Shown here piece by piece: positions 84 through 31,667 of a stretch of 64,000 nt of DNA; the stretch's first letter is position 1, and the number at the start of each line of letters is the position of its first letter. A model generated the notes under the pieces. That model did not search any database. It was not told where the DNA came from and worked only from the letters and a program-made list of their open reading frames with translations. The position numbers were made by a program, and so were the translations under genes. The stretch covers positions 1 to 64,000 of the forward strand of contig JACABB010000007.1 of assembly GCA_013376985.1 (NCBI GenBank), written 5' to 3'. This DNA comes from Bacteroidales bacterium (lineage in GTDB: Bacteria; Bacteroidota; Bacteroidia; Bacteroidales; Tenuifilaceae).

Positions 84-2126
84 TTAATTAGATTGCATCT
101 GTTCCATTTCGCTGATTTGCTCCAATAATTCTTGCGCTCTATAAACCTCTTGATATCTCTCTAAAATATCTTTTGCTATCTTCAAATTGCTTTTATTCTT
201 TTTAAATAAATCAACGCCCATAACTAATATTTGGGCATATTCAGTTTCATAGGCTTGTGGGTTTTTTTGGGCAAGTTCACTATAAATCTTCAAGGCTTCC
301 TCGTATTTTTCTTGTGCTTGCGGGAATTCGTTTTTTTCCGAATGTAAAATCGTTAAATTGGTTAAGATTTTAGCCACAGTGGGCAAATACGTTCTTGAAT
401 TTTCCTGGGCTAGATACTTATAGATATTCAAGGCTTCCTCATATTTTTCTTGAGCCTGCAGAAATTCGTTATTATCCTTTTGTAAAATCGCCAGATTGTT
501 TAAGGTCATTGCCACATCTGGCAGATACATCTTTGGATTCTCTTTGGCTAGTTCTCTTTGTATCTTCAGAGCCTCTTCGTATTTTTTTTGGGCTTGCGGA
601 AATTCATTATTATCCTTTTGTAAAACAGCCAAATTGTTCAAGGTTGCTGCAACATTAGACTGATAGGTCTTAGAGTTCTCTTGGGCTAGATATCTATAAA
701 TCGTCAAGGTCTCCTCGTATTTTATTTGGGCTTGCAGGAATTCATTATTATCCTTTTGTAAAATCGCCAAATTGTTTAAAGTCATTGCTACATCTGGTAG
801 ATATGTCCTTGAGTCCTCATTGGCTAGCTCTCTTTGTATCTTAAGCACCTCTTTGTATTTTTCTTGGGCTTGTGGAAATTCATTCTTATCCGAATGTAAA
901 ATCGCCAGATTGTTAAGGGTAATCACCACATCAGGCAGATATGTCTTCGGGTTCTTCTGGGCGAAGTCCCTATAAATCTTCAAGGCCTCCTCGTATTTTT
1001 TTTGAACCTGGGTGAATTCATTATTATCTTTTTGTAAAATCGCCAAATTGTTGAGGGTCATCGCCACATCGGGTAGAAACGTTGTTGGGTTCTCTTGGGC
1101 TAGTTCTCTTCGTATCTTCAAAGCCTCTTCGTATTTTTCTTGAGCCTGAATGAATTCATTCCTATCCGCATGTAAAATCGCCAAATTGTTCAAAGTAATG
1201 GCCATATCTGGCAGATAAGTTCTTGGGTTCTTCAGGGCTAGAGTTTGATAAATTTTCAAGATTTTTTGATATAAGCTGGCAGCCTCATCAAAATAGTCGA
1301 GTTTTTTTAAAAAATATGCTGTTTGAAAATAATTTTCTGCTGTTGGTTCTAGTAAAATTAGCTCTTTGTATAAATCTGCCGTCTGAGGGAATGCATAAAG
1401 GCTTTTTGTTGCTTTTATTGATTGTTTTAGCACTAGAATATTCTTTTTCTCTTTCTTCTCCTTTCTCGAAAAATACTCTAACTTTATTTTTTCGGCATCA
1501 CACCCTTGGAAATGCTTCTGAATGTTTTCTAGTACCCTAGCAAAATCTGTTTCCCCTACCGTTTTAAAATGGGTAATTTCATTAGCCAATGCTTCATTCT
1601 GCACAAAAAGCGAAGCTATTACTACCAATAGTAGCTCTTTTATCTCTAGTGATATCTTTCTAGTTTGATACCATTCATTAATTCTTGTCCTTACTTCGTC
1701 TTTGCCATTTTTTAAAGGTAGATTTTTCAGATATTGTTCAATATCATGGGAATCAATGTTTGATTTCTTTATCAACTCATCTAGTTTTTTGTGTGATTCT
1801 GCTATTGTTCCTAGATTTGAGACTTGTCCTTCAATTATTTTTTCACTGTTTTTCAGCATTTGTCCCTCTTTGTTTGAGAACAGAATGTCATATAAAATTG
1901 ATGAAAACAGGTTTATAAAAATACCTGATATAAAAGCGATGATAAGAGAACCAGATAAAAACCATGCTTCCAGATTGGTTAAACTACCATTAAGGGAGTT
2001 CCATTCGAAGCTAAGTACATACTCTAAACGGTTTGTACTATACAAGTAGGCTATTACACCCAGTAGTATAAGAGCGGGTATAAATAATCCTAGTAACCAT
2101 TTGTGTTTTTCAATAAATTTTTTCAT
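84..2126 (-). CDS. Membrane-anchored TPR-repeat protein (paralogue A)
   Basis: A 680-residue protein with two hydrophobic segments near the N terminus (about residues 12-30 and 55-78), a charged linker, then about eight tandem 46-residue helical repeats (about residues 280-645) of the pattern NEFxQAQEKYEEALKIxRxLAxENPxTYLPDVAxTLNNLAxLxxDx. This is a tetratricopeptide array of the kinesin-light-chain-like class, so a protein-interaction role at the inner membrane with the repeats in the cytoplasm is the likely reading. No catalytic domain is visible. It is paralogous to the next gene (3140-4849), which has about two fewer repeats, and both share the same upstream sequence, so the pair arose by tandem duplication. 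The repeats are nearly identical at DNA level (138-bp period), which favours repeat-number change by recombination. The physiological role is unknown. Confidence 0.85.
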   Translation of the reverse strand: MKKFIEKHKWLLGLFIPALILLGVIAYLYSTNRLEYVLSFEWNSLNGSLTNLEAWFLSGSLIIAFISGIFINLFSSILYDILFSNKEGQMLKNSEKIIEGQVSNLGTIAESHKKLDELIKKSNIDSHDIEQYLKNLPLKNGKDEVRTRINEWYQTRKISLEIKELLLVVIASLFVQNEALANEITHFKTVGETDFARVLENIQKHFQGCDAEKIKLEYFSRKEKKEKKNILVLKQSIKATKSLYAFPQTADLYKELILLEPTAENYFQTAYFLKKLDYFDEAASLYQKILKIYQTLALKNPRTYLPDMAITLNNLAILHADRNEFIQAQEKYEEALKIRRELAQENPTTFLPDVAMTLNNLAILQKDNNEFTQVQKKYEEALKIYRDFAQKNPKTYLPDVVITLNNLAILHSDKNEFPQAQEKYKEVLKIQRELANEDSRTYLPDVAMTLNNLAILQKDNNEFLQAQIKYEETLTIYRYLAQENSKTYQSNVAATLNNLAVLQKDNNEFPQAQKKYEEALKIQRELAKENPKMYLPDVAMTLNNLAILQKDNNEFLQAQEKYEEALNIYKYLAQENSRTYLPTVAKILTNLTILHSEKNEFPQAQEKYEEALKIYSELAQKNPQAYETEYAQILVMGVDLFKKNKSNLKIAKDILERYQEVYRAQELLEQISEMEQMQSN

Positions 2127-2242
2127 ACAATTTTAGTTTATTAAGAATCTTATTTATAATGATAACAGCTGCTAATTAAACTTTTATCAAACGGTATATT
2201 AATACGAATATTTTTATTTATAGTATTGATCTTTGTAATCCT

Positions 2243-2275
2243 AGAGTTTCGAACTTTTTAAAAGTCCGGAACTCT
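2243..2275. repeat. Short imperfect palindrome, copy 1
   Basis: Inverted repeat with 15-nt arms (AGAGTTTCGAACTTT and AAAGTCCGGAACTCT), mismatched at a few positions. A second version lies at 2688-2721 and a degraded half near 5578-5592. It lies among other repeats upstream of the TPR gene and has no clear terminator U-tract. Confidence 0.6.
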
Positions 2276-2302
2276 TATCACATATCAAAACGAAAGTATG
2301 TA

Positions 2303-2690
2303 AAAACATGCTTGCTTGCGCATCAACCCGAATATTTTTTATTTATAGTATTGGTCTTTGTGGGTGGAGTTTAATATAACGACACCTCTAAAAATTACTT
2401 TTGTCTGTCATTCCTGCGAATGCAGGAATCTAACATTAAGTAATTTAGGGATTCCTGCATTCGCAGGAATGACAGGTTAACGTGATGCTCTTGAATTTTT
2501 AGAGGTAACTATAACGGTGTGATGTAGTTCCTTTACCAAAATTATGTAATTGGGCAACAAATATTATGCGGCTCTGCCGCTACGAGGGCATTTAACAATA
2601 TGGATTCACGCTTTGGGTGCGTAGCACCTTGATATTTGTAGGCTATAAGGGCAATAGTTGCAGGGTACAGTAATCTTTTTAAATCCTAGA
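2303..2690. repeat. Dispersed palindrome-rich repeat unit, interrupted by an insertion
   Basis: This stretch is homologous to the repeat at 5085-5575. It contains the same run: a lead-in with CTTGCTTGCGCATCAACCC, then the mini-palindromes GCGGCTCTGCCGC and GGTGCGTAGCACC. A 128-bp element at 2382-2509 splits it. The matching position upstream of the second TPR gene suggests it was duplicated together with that gene. Confidence 0.75.
2382..2509. mobile_element. MITE-like non-autonomous element with target duplication
   Basis: The element has perfect 13-bp terminal inverted repeats (ACCTCTAAAAATT at 2384-2396 and its complement at 2494-2506) and is flanked by a direct duplication TATAACG (2375-2381 and 2510-2516). 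The uninterrupted version of the host repeat at 5154-5180 shows the pre-insertion sequence. Inside is a second perfect inverted repeat with 26-nt arms (2405-2430 and 2450-2475) around a 19-nt loop. There is no coding capacity, so a transposase would have to act in trans; none is in this window. Confidence 0.75.
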
Positions 2691-28615: not shown

Positions 28616-29021
28616 AAATAAACAGTAAACCGCTCTATCGCTCCTTGAAATATAGGGGAGGAAAGTCCGGGCAACTCAGGGCACCATTCTTCCTAACAGG
28701 AAGATATTCGTGAGGGTATAGTAGCGTAACAGAAAATAACCGTCCCAATTTATTGGGATAAGGGTGAAAAGGTGGGGTAAGAGCCCACCGGGTTCTGTAG
28801 CAATACGGAATGCCGTACGCCTAATGGGTTGTAAGACCATGTATATTACGATTCTTTCTGCTTTGCAGAAGGAGCAGAGCTGCTCGCATTGTTTTAGGGT
28901 AACCTAAAGTCGTAAGGGGTAGGTCGCTCGAGGTTATAGGTGACTATAATCCTAGATAAATGATAGAGGCCTTAATTTATTTATCGCACAGAACCCGGCT
29001 TACAGGTTTACTGTTTTATTT
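28616..29021 (+). ncRNA. rnpB: RNase P RNA (bacterial type A-like)
   Basis: Contains the universal core GGAGGAAAGTCCGGGC near 28657 (P4 and CR-I), the segment ACAGAAAATAACCG near 28729, GGTAAGAGCCCACCG in the middle, and the 3' element ACAGAACCCGGCTTAC at 28988. The ends pair: AACAGTAAACC at 28621 with GGTTTACTGTT at 29005-29015, making helix P1. A T-rich tract follows. It is the catalytic part of RNase P, which cuts the 5' leader of pre-tRNAs. It starts 18 nt after the Smr stop codon. Confidence 0.95.
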
Positions 29022-30161
29022 CTTCTTTTTTCTACCCCAGCATTCTACTTTAATTATGTTAAATAAGATTTTGACTAAAAACTAGTCAATTCTACATTAA
29101 TAAACACCTATTTTCATACAAAATTACATATGTAAACCATTGAAATATGACACTATTACAGAAATATGTTTACATATGTATAATAAATACTTATCATATA
29201 ATTGATATATCAGCATAGTCGAATTGAATATTTTATCATACTATATACCAGCTTTTTATGATGATTAATTGATTTTATTATTCAATGTTTTAAGGGCTTC
29301 TTATCAATTTTAACGTGCAAAATGCTGTTTTTAATAACTTATTTAATAGATAACCAGCAATATATGCAATTCATTATAATAACTTGTTTAAAGTATATGC
29401 ATACTACATACTTCAAAAGTGAATAACTGGCTTATATTTGACCTATAAAGCATGTTATTCGAAGCTATTAATGCATAGGTAATGATATTTGACCCTATCA
29501 AATCTAAGTAAAGGTGATTTAATACTTAAGCACCATTTCATAGGCTATTAGCAGATAAATTCAATAGAAGGATGTGAACTAATATGCTGAAAAATACATT
29601 TTGTTTACATATAACACACTGTTTTAATGGTGATTATCGTTAATTCACGTTTATTATCTCTTCTAAACGCTAATACGCGTAATCTCATTAAACATCTGTT
29701 CTTTATTCACTTACGATTTATAAACTAATTAGCCATTCTTCAATGGCCAGACATAGTTTTATTCAAACAGAGAGCATTCAAAAGCATTTCAAGAGTAGAA
29801 TCCGCGTATTCTTCCCCCCAATCTTACAGAAAATCAAAATTTCGCTAAGAGCAATCGTTAGTTTAAGGCATAATAATTTTCTTTTAGCTGACCTAAAGCG
29901 CTTTGCACGATAAACAATCGAAAAACGGTTTTACTTCCTTATTATATCTGAAAATATTATATATATACCTAAATATTAACGCAATATACAACTTAGGGAC
30001 TATCACAATTCATAGGTGCATTTAGTTTGAAGTGAGCCCAGAATAAAATGGTTACATAAGACGCAATAATTACACATGTAATCACAACTAGTTTACGCAT
30101 GGAACATGAAATGATTACATATGTATTGATAATTTTATTACATTTGTAAAAAAATACATTT
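29022..30161. other. 1.1-kb AT-rich non-coding region with repeated operator-like palindromes
   Basis: No credible reading frame is present on either strand. Palindromes close to TTACATATGTAA occur at 29124-29135 (perfect), 29170-29181, 30070-30081, 30115-30126 and 30138-30149; half sites lie near 29604 and 30057. They cluster at the two ends, and the paired sites at each end are 45-46 bp apart. I see no DnaA boxes, no tRNA and no transposase. One isolated -7-like TATATTTG lies at 29433-29440. The region may regulate the XRE gene and perhaps host a small RNA. Confidence 0.7.
30138..30149 (+). promoter_or_regulatory. Operator overlapping the XRE gene promoter
   Basis: The palindrome TTACATTTGTAA contains TACATTTG (30139-30146), which is itself a TAnnTTTG -7 box placed 16 nt before the ATG at 30162. 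A protein bound to the palindrome would cover the promoter, which suggests autorepression. Confidence 0.65.
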
Positions 30162-30572
30162 ATGGAGGCACGTATTCAGAAGTTAATAAGCTATGAAAAC
30201 CTTACGCCTACTAAGTTTGCTGATATTATAGGGGTGCAACGTAGTGCTATTTCCCATATACTGTCTGGTAGAAATAAGCCGAGTTTCGATTTGATTCAGA
30301 AAATTCTAAACAAATTTCCTAGGCTTAGCTCTGAATGGTTGCTTATGGGAAGAGGCGAAATGTATAAAACTATGGTACAACAGCGTTTATTCGATGTTGA
30401 TCAAAAACCTAATGATATTAAAACTGAGGTTAAACCCCCTGTAATTCAAGAAAATGCACCTATTATTTCGATTCCTAAAGAGGCTGAGAGTCGCGTAAAC
30501 GACAGCAGCATTGAGCGTATCATAATATTTTACAGCGATAAAAGCTTTAAAGAGTACACCCCCGGCGAGTAA
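30162..30572 (+). CDS. Small XRE-family helix-turn-helix regulator
   Basis: A 136-residue protein. Residues about 3-65 form a Cro/C1-type helix-turn-helix (LTPTKFADIIGVQRSAISHI then LSGRNKPSFDLI), with SEWLLMGRGEMY after it. The C terminus, ERIIIFYSDKSFKEYTPGE, is a tail found in many Bacteroidota regulators of this size. Upstream DNA holds five TTACATATGTAA-like palindromes, one over its own -7 box, so it probably binds these and represses itself. It stands 52 nt upstream of pyrD but pyrD has its own promoter. Its wider targets are unknown. Confidence 0.8.
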   Translation: MEARIQKLISYENLTPTKFADIIGVQRSAISHILSGRNKPSFDLIQKILNKFPRLSSEWLLMGRGEMYKTMVQQRLFDVDQKPNDIKTEVKPPVIQENAPIISIPKEAESRVNDSSIERIIIFYSDKSFKEYTPGE

Positions 30573-30579
30573 TTTTTTG

Positions 30580-30611
30580 TTTGGTAAATTTTTGAGATTA
30601 TAGTAGTTTTG
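30580..30611 (+). promoter_or_regulatory. Promoter of pyrD
   Basis: TTTG at 30580-30583 and TAGTTTTG at 30604-30611, 20 nt apart, a near-ideal Bacteroidota promoter. The TTG that would start the longest frame (30609) lies inside it, so translation starts at the ATG at 30624 with a very short leader. Confidence 0.75.
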
Positions 30612-30623
30612 CAAAAATTCTTT

Positions 30624-31667
30624 ATGTACGAGAAACTACTTCGACCAATCCTTTTTTTACTCTCCCCCGAAAAAATTCATTCACTTGTAGTTGTTTTCAT
30701 TAAAGTCGGATTTCGGATTCCTGGAATCAAATGGATTATTCGCAGAGTAACCAAAGTTGAACATCCATTGCTTCATAGAACTGTTCTTGGATTTGAATTC
30801 AAAAACCCTGTAGGTTTTGCGGCTGGATTCGATAAGAACGCCGAAGTTTACCAAGATTTCGAAGCATTTGGCTTTTCTTTTATAGAAATAGGTACCGTTA
30901 CACCTAAACCACAACCTGGTAATCCAAAACCACGATCATTTCGACTTAAAGCCGATAAAGCTCTTATAAATAGGATGGGCTTTAACAATAAAGGGGTAGT
31001 ATACGCAAAGGAGAGACTTCAAAACCGGCAGGGTAGTATTATAGTTGGTGGCAATATTGGGAAAAACACAGCAACACCTAACGAGCAAGCCATTGACGAC
31101 TATGTGTTCTGTTTTAAGGAGTTATACGACCATGTCGATTATCTTGTTGTCAATATTAGTTGTCCTAATGTTGCAAACCTTCGTCATCTGCAGGATGGTG
31201 AGCATCTGGGACAAATTCTCGATGTGTTGATGACTGAGCGTAAGCTGAGAAGCAAATACAAACCAATACTACTTAAGGTTTCACCTGATCTTACAGTAGA
31301 ACAGCTTGATGAGACAATTACAACTGCCGTAGCTTCTGGTATTGATGGGTTTATTGCGACCAACACAACTACTTCACGCGATAACCTATCAACAAGTAAA
31401 GCAAAGGTAGCTGCAATAGGCAATGGCGGCCTAAGTGGAGCTCCAATTACCAAGCGTTCAACCGAGGTTATACGTTACATCTCACAAAAAACGTCTGGCA
31501 AAATACCTATTATTGGTGTAGGAGGCATAATGACTGCTGACGATGCTATTGAAAAATTGAATGCAGGCGCATCTCTAATTCAGTTATATACTGGGTTTAT
31601 CTATTCAGGACCAATGTTCGTGAAGAGGATAAATAAAGCATTATTAAAAAAACAAAATAATATATAA
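30624..31667 (+). CDS. pyrD: Dihydroorotate dehydrogenase (quinone), class 2
   Basis: A 347-residue class 2 enzyme. An N-terminal helix (YEKLLRPILFLLSPEKIHSL) for membrane association is followed by the barrel with NPVGFAAGFDKN, GFGFIEIGTVTP-like FSFIEIGTVTPKPQ, NRMGFNNKG, VVNISCPN with the active-site serine region, and IGVGGI. It oxidises dihydroorotate to orotate for pyrimidine synthesis, passing electrons to quinone. It lies 11 nt upstream of the selenium-related yedF gene, so the selenium genes probably share its promoter, an unexpected pairing. Confidence 0.93.
   Translation: MYEKLLRPILFLLSPEKIHSLVVVFIKVGFRIPGIKWIIRRVTKVEHPLLHRTVLGFEFKNPVGFAAGFDKNAEVYQDFEAFGFSFIEIGTVTPKPQPGNPKPRSFRLKADKALINRMGFNNKGVVYAKERLQNRQGSIIVGGNIGKNTATPNEQAIDDYVFCFKELYDHVDYLVVNISCPNVANLRHLQDGEHLGQILDVLMTERKLRSKYKPILLKVSPDLTVEQLDETITTAVASGIDGFIATNTTTSRDNLSTSKAKVAAIGNGGLSGAPITKRSTEVIRYISQKTSGKIPIIGVGGIMTADDAIEKLNAGASLIQLYTGFIYSGPMFVKRINKALLKKQNNI

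Follow-up and report, generated by a model that had tools for sequence, protein, structure and literature searches.

Two clusters of palindromic candidate operators conserved upstream of an XRE-family regulator gene in Bacteroidota, and a possible DNA loop between them

What do two operator-like palindromes do beside rnpB, at the far end of a long gap from the XRE-family gene at whose promoter their sister sites lie? The question arises in a window (the whole 64,000-nucleotide stretch of Bacteroidales DNA analysed here) in which the gene for the class A RNase P RNA, rnpB (28622-29018, plus strand; Rfam RF00010, 245.6 bits), is the left neighbour of a gene encoding a 136-residue XRE-family regulator (30162-30572, plus strand; Pfam HTH_3 PF01381, 35.2 bits against a cut-off of 23). 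The gap between them covers 29019-30161, or 1.14 kb; the original prediction had given it as 29022-30161, with the right end correct and the left end 3 bp too far in, since rnpB ends at 29018. Five palindromes of one family, TTACANNTGTAA with at most one mismatch, had been predicted in this gap and were found there by pattern search: the distal candidate operators D1 (TTACATATGTAA, a perfect palindrome, 29124-29135) and D2 (TTACATATGTAT, 29170-29181; aligned in three sister species, with changes), and the proximal P1 (TTACACATGTAA, 30070-30081), P2 (TTACATATGTAT, 30115-30126) and P3 (TTACATTTGTAA, 30138-30149). Their spacings of 46 bp at the rnpB end and of 45 and 23 bp before the XRE gene also agree with the prediction. 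A degenerate sixth proximal operator (TTACGCATGGAA, 30093-30104) has two mismatches and is aligned with better sites in sister species.

Five sites in 1.14 kb are far from chance, because the genome density predicts 0.007 (Poisson probability about 1.6e-13): the 5.26-Mb genome holds 33 sites with at most one mismatch from TTACATATGTAA, five of them in the gap, against 37 for the control (reversed) pattern. Allowing two mismatches, the whole window gave 11 matches against a shuffle mean of 7.4, which is no excess, so that it is the clustering that is unusual and not the motif as such. Exact TTACANNTGTAA was matched 226 times in 26 genomes and the control 236 times. The genome-wide search that had been proposed to find a regulon consequently gave no sign of one, and a regulon was rejected on the control-level frequencies in the 26 genomes and in the window's own. 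Randomly distributed palindromes had been named as an outcome that would speak against the prediction; outside the locus the sites do occur at chance level, but paired sites, defined as two sites within 5-35 bp, are concentrated at the XRE gene. Among 31 genomes, pairs gave 14 match rows in ten genomes and the control none; ten rows (eight genomes) lie upstream of an XRE gene and four (G029 and G005) elsewhere, and the seven genomes of the 31 in which no XRE relative was detected held no paired sites. All 12 rows from 20 finished genomes (eight of them with matches) fall within about 320 bp of an XRE gene, and control pairs were matched in one of the 20. Paired sites are thus nearly exclusive to this locus. 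Paired operator-like sites away from a detected XRE gene were seen at G029:C6:76253-76296 and G005:C59:54796-54827.

At a threshold of E<=0.001, 49 of 60 near genomes and 144 of 392 genomes of the phylum contain relatives of the XRE protein, the weaker of which are probably other XRE proteins. From 130 gathered loci we omitted L136 and L162, which lack an anchor, and L112, a duplicate of L102, leaving 127 anchored at the start codon, and then three with less than 450 bp upstream, leaving 124; at least one genome is counted twice in the set (L056 equals L043), and the 80 named loci span Bacteroidales, Flavobacteriales and Cytophagales. Sites within 200 bp of the XRE start were called proximal and those further out distal. 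In the 124 loci, which are related and were counted irrespective of kinship, proximal sites occur in 115, distal sites in 110 and both in 102, whereas none of five control patterns exceeded 18, 22 and 4, respectively, so the conservation in relatives proposed as a check is observed for both clusters. Counted per 100-bp bin, exact sites number 113 just before the XRE start, 0 just after it and 34 at -300 to -200, with a tail reaching -1000. The distal clusters lie 270-1040 bp upstream, here just behind rnpB, and are missing from Cytophagales loci with short gaps (e.g. L095, L098, L120, L123, L124 and L131). Adjacent sites are mostly 22-24, 33-36 or 45-46 bp apart; a periodicity near 11 bp in this spacing (R 0.70, n=267) is not taken as proof, since R reaches 0.50 at a period of 13 as well.

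The upstream neighbours in the 127 loci include an M14 peptidase (35), rnpB (17), an SDF symporter (16) and queA (8), where one locus may hold two of these and the SDF and queA genes stand at varying distance and on varying strand. As judged from the sequences compared, the sites follow the XRE gene and not its neighbours, and rnpB is outside the conserved module. A single conserved divergent gene as the target was rejected, the upstream gene differing between loci. Two early loci near mid-contig had led us to consider a replication terminus, dif or origin; this was also rejected, the XRE gene lying at 0.03-0.46 of the genome from dnaA, with a mean of about 0.20, in 20 finished genomes (distances from rounded genome sizes, with dnaA as a proxy for the origin only).

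The last palindrome, P3, had been said to contain the -7 box of the XRE gene, and indeed holds TACATTTG at 30139-30146, which fits TAnnTTTG, the -7 consensus of the Bacteroidetes sigma-ABfr promoter given in an excerpt of PMC7366714. On inspection by eye no TTTG, the -33 box, was seen about 20 bp upstream of it; the same excerpt says that no -33 motif was detected in F. johnsoniae. The last proximal site has a -7-like TT centre, giving TACATTTG, in 63 of 100 loci, and the proximal cluster stays with the gene as the flanks change. An operator over a gene's own promoter and conserved with that gene is what marks an autorepressor, and comparison lends good support to the original prediction that the XRE gene is repressed by its own product; autoregulation is likely.

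The AlphaFold2 model of the XRE protein (mean pLDDT 84.1, pTM 0.52) comprises a confident five-helix HTH of Cro/CI type (helices within residues 2-62), a low-confidence linker and a C-terminal beta-hairpin (residues 120-132). Foldseek gave no match to it at E<=0.001, the best being 8e-3; the top matches were mostly XRE-type HTH repressors aligned over the HTH part. Three PDB entries match the protein by sequence, among them 9sf2, titled as the repressor of phage Phi106. The predicted fold contains no recognised oligomerisation domain, and as a guess from the model, the C-terminal hairpin might oligomerise. The linker is also where an operator-like palindrome falls inside the XRE gene of a few loci (L044 at +300, L045 at +267, L048 at +336, L060 at +279, L098 at +189, and L116 at +189 and +246). 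It encodes [ILV]TNV there, with the codons ACA AAT GTA or GTG in seven of seven peptides, a codon use hinting at intragenic operators. The XRE gene of the window has no such palindrome.

Downstream, pyrD (quinone-dependent dihydroorotate dehydrogenase; 30627-31667, plus strand; NCBIfam NF003652, 478 bits) is preceded by a separate promoter-like sequence of its own, read as TTTG-N20-TAGTTTTG (30580-30611, plus strand), and so need not depend on the XRE promoter. For its start, ATG 30627 seems preferable to the listed TTG 30609, because that TTG lies within the -7 box of pyrD. In 65 of 127 loci the XRE gene is closely followed by dihydroorotate dehydrogenase genes, which differ in class (class 2 pyrD, or pyrK with class 1 pyrD); given the promoter-like sequence of pyrD, the link with the XRE gene may be only positional.

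The distal cluster is the part that calls for explanation. It could act as operator for a leftward promoter, which would make the locus a divergent promoter pair with each -7 box inside an operator and, in the window, with transcription antisense into rnpB. An AA centre in the leftmost distal site, which creates TACATTTG reading leftward, is found in 36 of 49 loci whose upstream neighbour is divergent, in 10 of 43 whose neighbour is codirectional and in 3 of 8 with no upstream ORF; in most M14 loci, the divergent gene is predicted to start 15-16 bp beyond the distal operator. Much of this preference comes from one M14 clade that makes up 29 of the 49 divergent loci (27 with AA); without it the difference is weak, 9 of 20 against 10 of 43. 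The AA centre occurs in none of 15 rnpB-flanked loci, and the leftmost distal site of the window has a TA centre, a weak box in either direction, so that a leftward promoter is an unlikely account of the cluster here. The counts by neighbour orientation suggest that certain lineages, with Flavobacteriia as the clearest case, also use the distal cluster as a divergent promoter, which the present lineage probably does not. A Flavobacteriia example is L115, where a zinc carboxypeptidase gene (Peptidase_M14; 1528-2679, minus strand) is divergent to the XRE gene. Such M14 peptidases are, from the arrangement of the genes, the likeliest second target of the XRE regulator. The same lack of leftward boxes in rnpB-flanked loci would suit a distal cluster left over, now without function, from a promoter that disappeared when rnpB became the upstream neighbour. 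We regard this as very improbable: across the genus, the distal block has changed less than most of the spacer, and D1 stays palindromic in all four species.

The stretch between the clusters was compared in a middle set of 100 loci having at least two sites and a gap of more than 120 bp. An unguided motif search returned a 44-bp element with a log-likelihood of 734, against 118 for shuffled middles (60 and 25 random starts), and a consensus near TAa...acT.tatATCAgt..tTTA.a....ttaa.t.AA. Its weight matrix scores above 6 in 92 of 100 loci, counted on the training loci themselves. When it was trained on the 70 non-Flavobacteriia loci, 12 of the 30 held-out Flavobacteriia loci exceeded 6, against 6 of 30 on the opposite strand and 2.5% of shuffles, and 19 of the 30 best placements fell at -175 to -161; of the downstream control stretches, 1 in 117 scored above 8. 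Elements are present in 94 of 110 loci with distal sites and in 5 of 14 without.

The core of the element, ATCAg-N4-TTA, fits the IHF consensus WATCARNNNNTTR (as given in an excerpt of PMC8421141), including its exact 4-bp gap. On the plus strand, WATCARNNNNTTR has 47 sites in 40 of 100 loci, against 5.3 in shuffles (maximum 13 in 200 shuffles), and the pattern with gaps of 2, 3, 5 or 6 bp has 6-9 sites, about chance. Five permuted words gave 7-15 sites on the plus strand, the 15 of WTTCAR equalling the shuffle maximum, and the control word WTACAR was raised on the minus strand (22 against 7.1). The window carries two copies with starts 106 bp apart. Element A (29234-29277, plus strand; matrix score 16.3, position -928) has its core, TACCAGCTTTTTA, at 29246-29258, differing from WATCARNNNNTTR by a single T-to-C change, and element B (29340-29383, plus strand; matrix score 8.7, position -822) has the weaker core AACCAGCAATATA at 29352, with ACCAG at 29353. 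Neither contains the strict consensus, A having C for T and B also breaking TTR. Three HU/IHF-family genes are present in the window's genome.

Two copies exceed a score of 6 in 46 loci; 25 of these pairs are spaced 105-107 bp, 13 pairs 115-118 bp and eight are scattered, so that 38 of 46 correspond to about 10 or 11 helical turns. Pairs of A[TC]CAG behave similarly at the shorter distance (11 of 32 at 105-107 bp and 1 of 32 at 115-118 bp; shuffle means 0.1 and 0.2), and a looser core pattern carries little spacing signal (21 pairs, 1 and 3 at these distances). That the two spacings differ by a single helical turn suggests that both bends face the same side of the DNA. Conservation reaches beyond the 13-bp IHF core, to a TA 12 bp ahead of it and an AAgTa 25 bp behind it, as might be expected if another DNA-binding protein were bound there, an activator or a recombinase-like protein, whose complex the distal sites would serve. 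A recombinase-like protein came into consideration through a partial dyad, ACT-N7-AGT, in the middle elements; this dyad is not enriched in the window's genome (80 matches against 103 for controls), and the preference for an exact 4-bp gap fits IHF. We hold the reading with another protein to be possible, if doubtful.

The gap might instead encode a small or long non-coding RNA whose promoter is controlled by the distal operators. The distal site reads TTACATTTGTAA, a rightward -7 box, in 12 of 43 codirectional loci, and the 150-nt piece 29632-29781 (plus strand) folds better than its shuffles (z -2.74), the only such piece inside the gap; the other 11 pieces between the clusters have z of -1.5 to 1.5. 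That piece lies in a portion that diverges within the genus, two alignments of ten sequences gave 0 of 22 and 0 of 10 compensatory pairs, no Rfam family besides rnpB reaches its gathering score in the gap, and repeats set 10 or 11 helical turns apart suggest a role at the level of DNA. With no known family and no covarying fold, a small RNA was rejected as the main reading, and a non-coding RNA of any length appears most unlikely. Between rnpB and the first operator there is an inverted repeat, TTGACTA-N5-TAGTCAA (29071-29089), perhaps an rnpB processing or end signal; on the plus strand, a 105-nt stretch containing it has a more stable predicted fold than its shuffles (z -2.32). The sole listed ORF of at least 50 codons in the gap (29743-29913, 56 aa) had no match in Pfam or, by tblastn at E<=1, in any of the 126 remaining loci, and was rejected as a gene.

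The reading towards which we lean, by a small measure, is that of an XRE autorepressor bridging its two operator clusters over DNA bent by an HU/IHF-family protein, with its own gene as the main or only target. Two separate operator positions, present in 102 of 124 loci, are what a loop-forming repressor needs, and of the three options offered by the original prediction for the distal pair, looping fits best; a divergent transcript applies only to lineages with a divergent neighbour, and the small RNA is unsupported. We infer binding, autorepression, bending and looping at the locus as follows. XRE dimers would bind the TTACANNTGTAA sites of both clusters, and those over the promoter, the last one covering the -7 box, would repress the XRE gene. 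An HU/IHF-family protein would bend the DNA at one or two A/T-rich middle elements, and repressors on the two clusters could then bridge and close the loop, making repression tighter and switch-like. Where a divergent gene borders the distal cluster, the same cluster would be its promoter-operator; in the rnpB lineage, with no leftward -7 box, it would serve the loop only. The loop length differs greatly between loci, from about 150 to 900 bp, and the five loci that lack distal sites yet keep a middle element count against looping.

A bolder proposal, which we think improbable, is that the locus is a stand-alone nucleoprotein device of Bacteroidota, made of one XRE protein, one site and a phased, looped complex with HU/IHF-family proteins; the complex would itself be the product in place of a regulon, acting either as a switch that retains memory or as an anchor for the structure of the chromosome, and autoregulation would hold the protein level constant. 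Only a few model systems have provided repressors that loop DNA with the help of bending cofactors. If looping is right, the present locus would add one that is chromosomal and conserved across much of a phylum, and its natural variation in loop length, bend number and neighbouring genes would allow looping and helical phasing to be tested comparatively; it would raise the question of why a repressor is kept that seems to control little besides itself, and would offer a compact autoregulated promoter for Bacteroidota genetics.

A search limited to open-licence PMC papers found none on the TTACANNTGTAA operator or its XRE regulator, and comparison is therefore with other systems. Like lambda CI, the regulator described here has an HTH of Cro/CI type, clustered sites, probable autoregulation and, as proposed here, a long loop. 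The lambda operators are spaced near 23-24 bp, akin to the spacing found here, and the C-terminal part of CI is a protease-like domain, in place of which the XRE protein has a short hairpin. Lambda is not known to need IHF sites. No prophage context that was examined lends support to a phage origin here. The lambda CI loop between OL and OR measures 2.3 kb (excerpt of PMC4207663).

The closest XRE case, as far as the excerpt of PMC4207663 describes it, is the Rco switch of plasmid pLS20. Rco is likewise an XRE regulator with two multi-site operators; it controls its own and a divergent promoter through a DNA loop, and a half-turn insertion destroys the regulation. It differs in being a conjugation switch of a Bacillus plasmid, with a 75-bp spacer and intrinsic curvature, whereas the present system is chromosomal, belongs to Bacteroidota and has a longer spacer with IHF-type elements.

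The closest mechanism is that of the E. coli gal repressosome, in which GalR occupies OE and OI and HU sits at hbs at the loop apex, with an optimum at full helical turns; repression was optimal at 103, 113, 123 and 133 bp (both from an excerpt of PMC4693257). As in gal, there are two operator positions here, a putative bending site of HU/IHF type between them and full helical turns. GalR, in contrast, is a LacI-type protein with other targets and single operators 113 bp apart, whereas here an XRE protein would act on clusters of sites across a loop of about 150-900 bp, and it is the putative bending sites, not the operators, that keep 10 or 11 turns.
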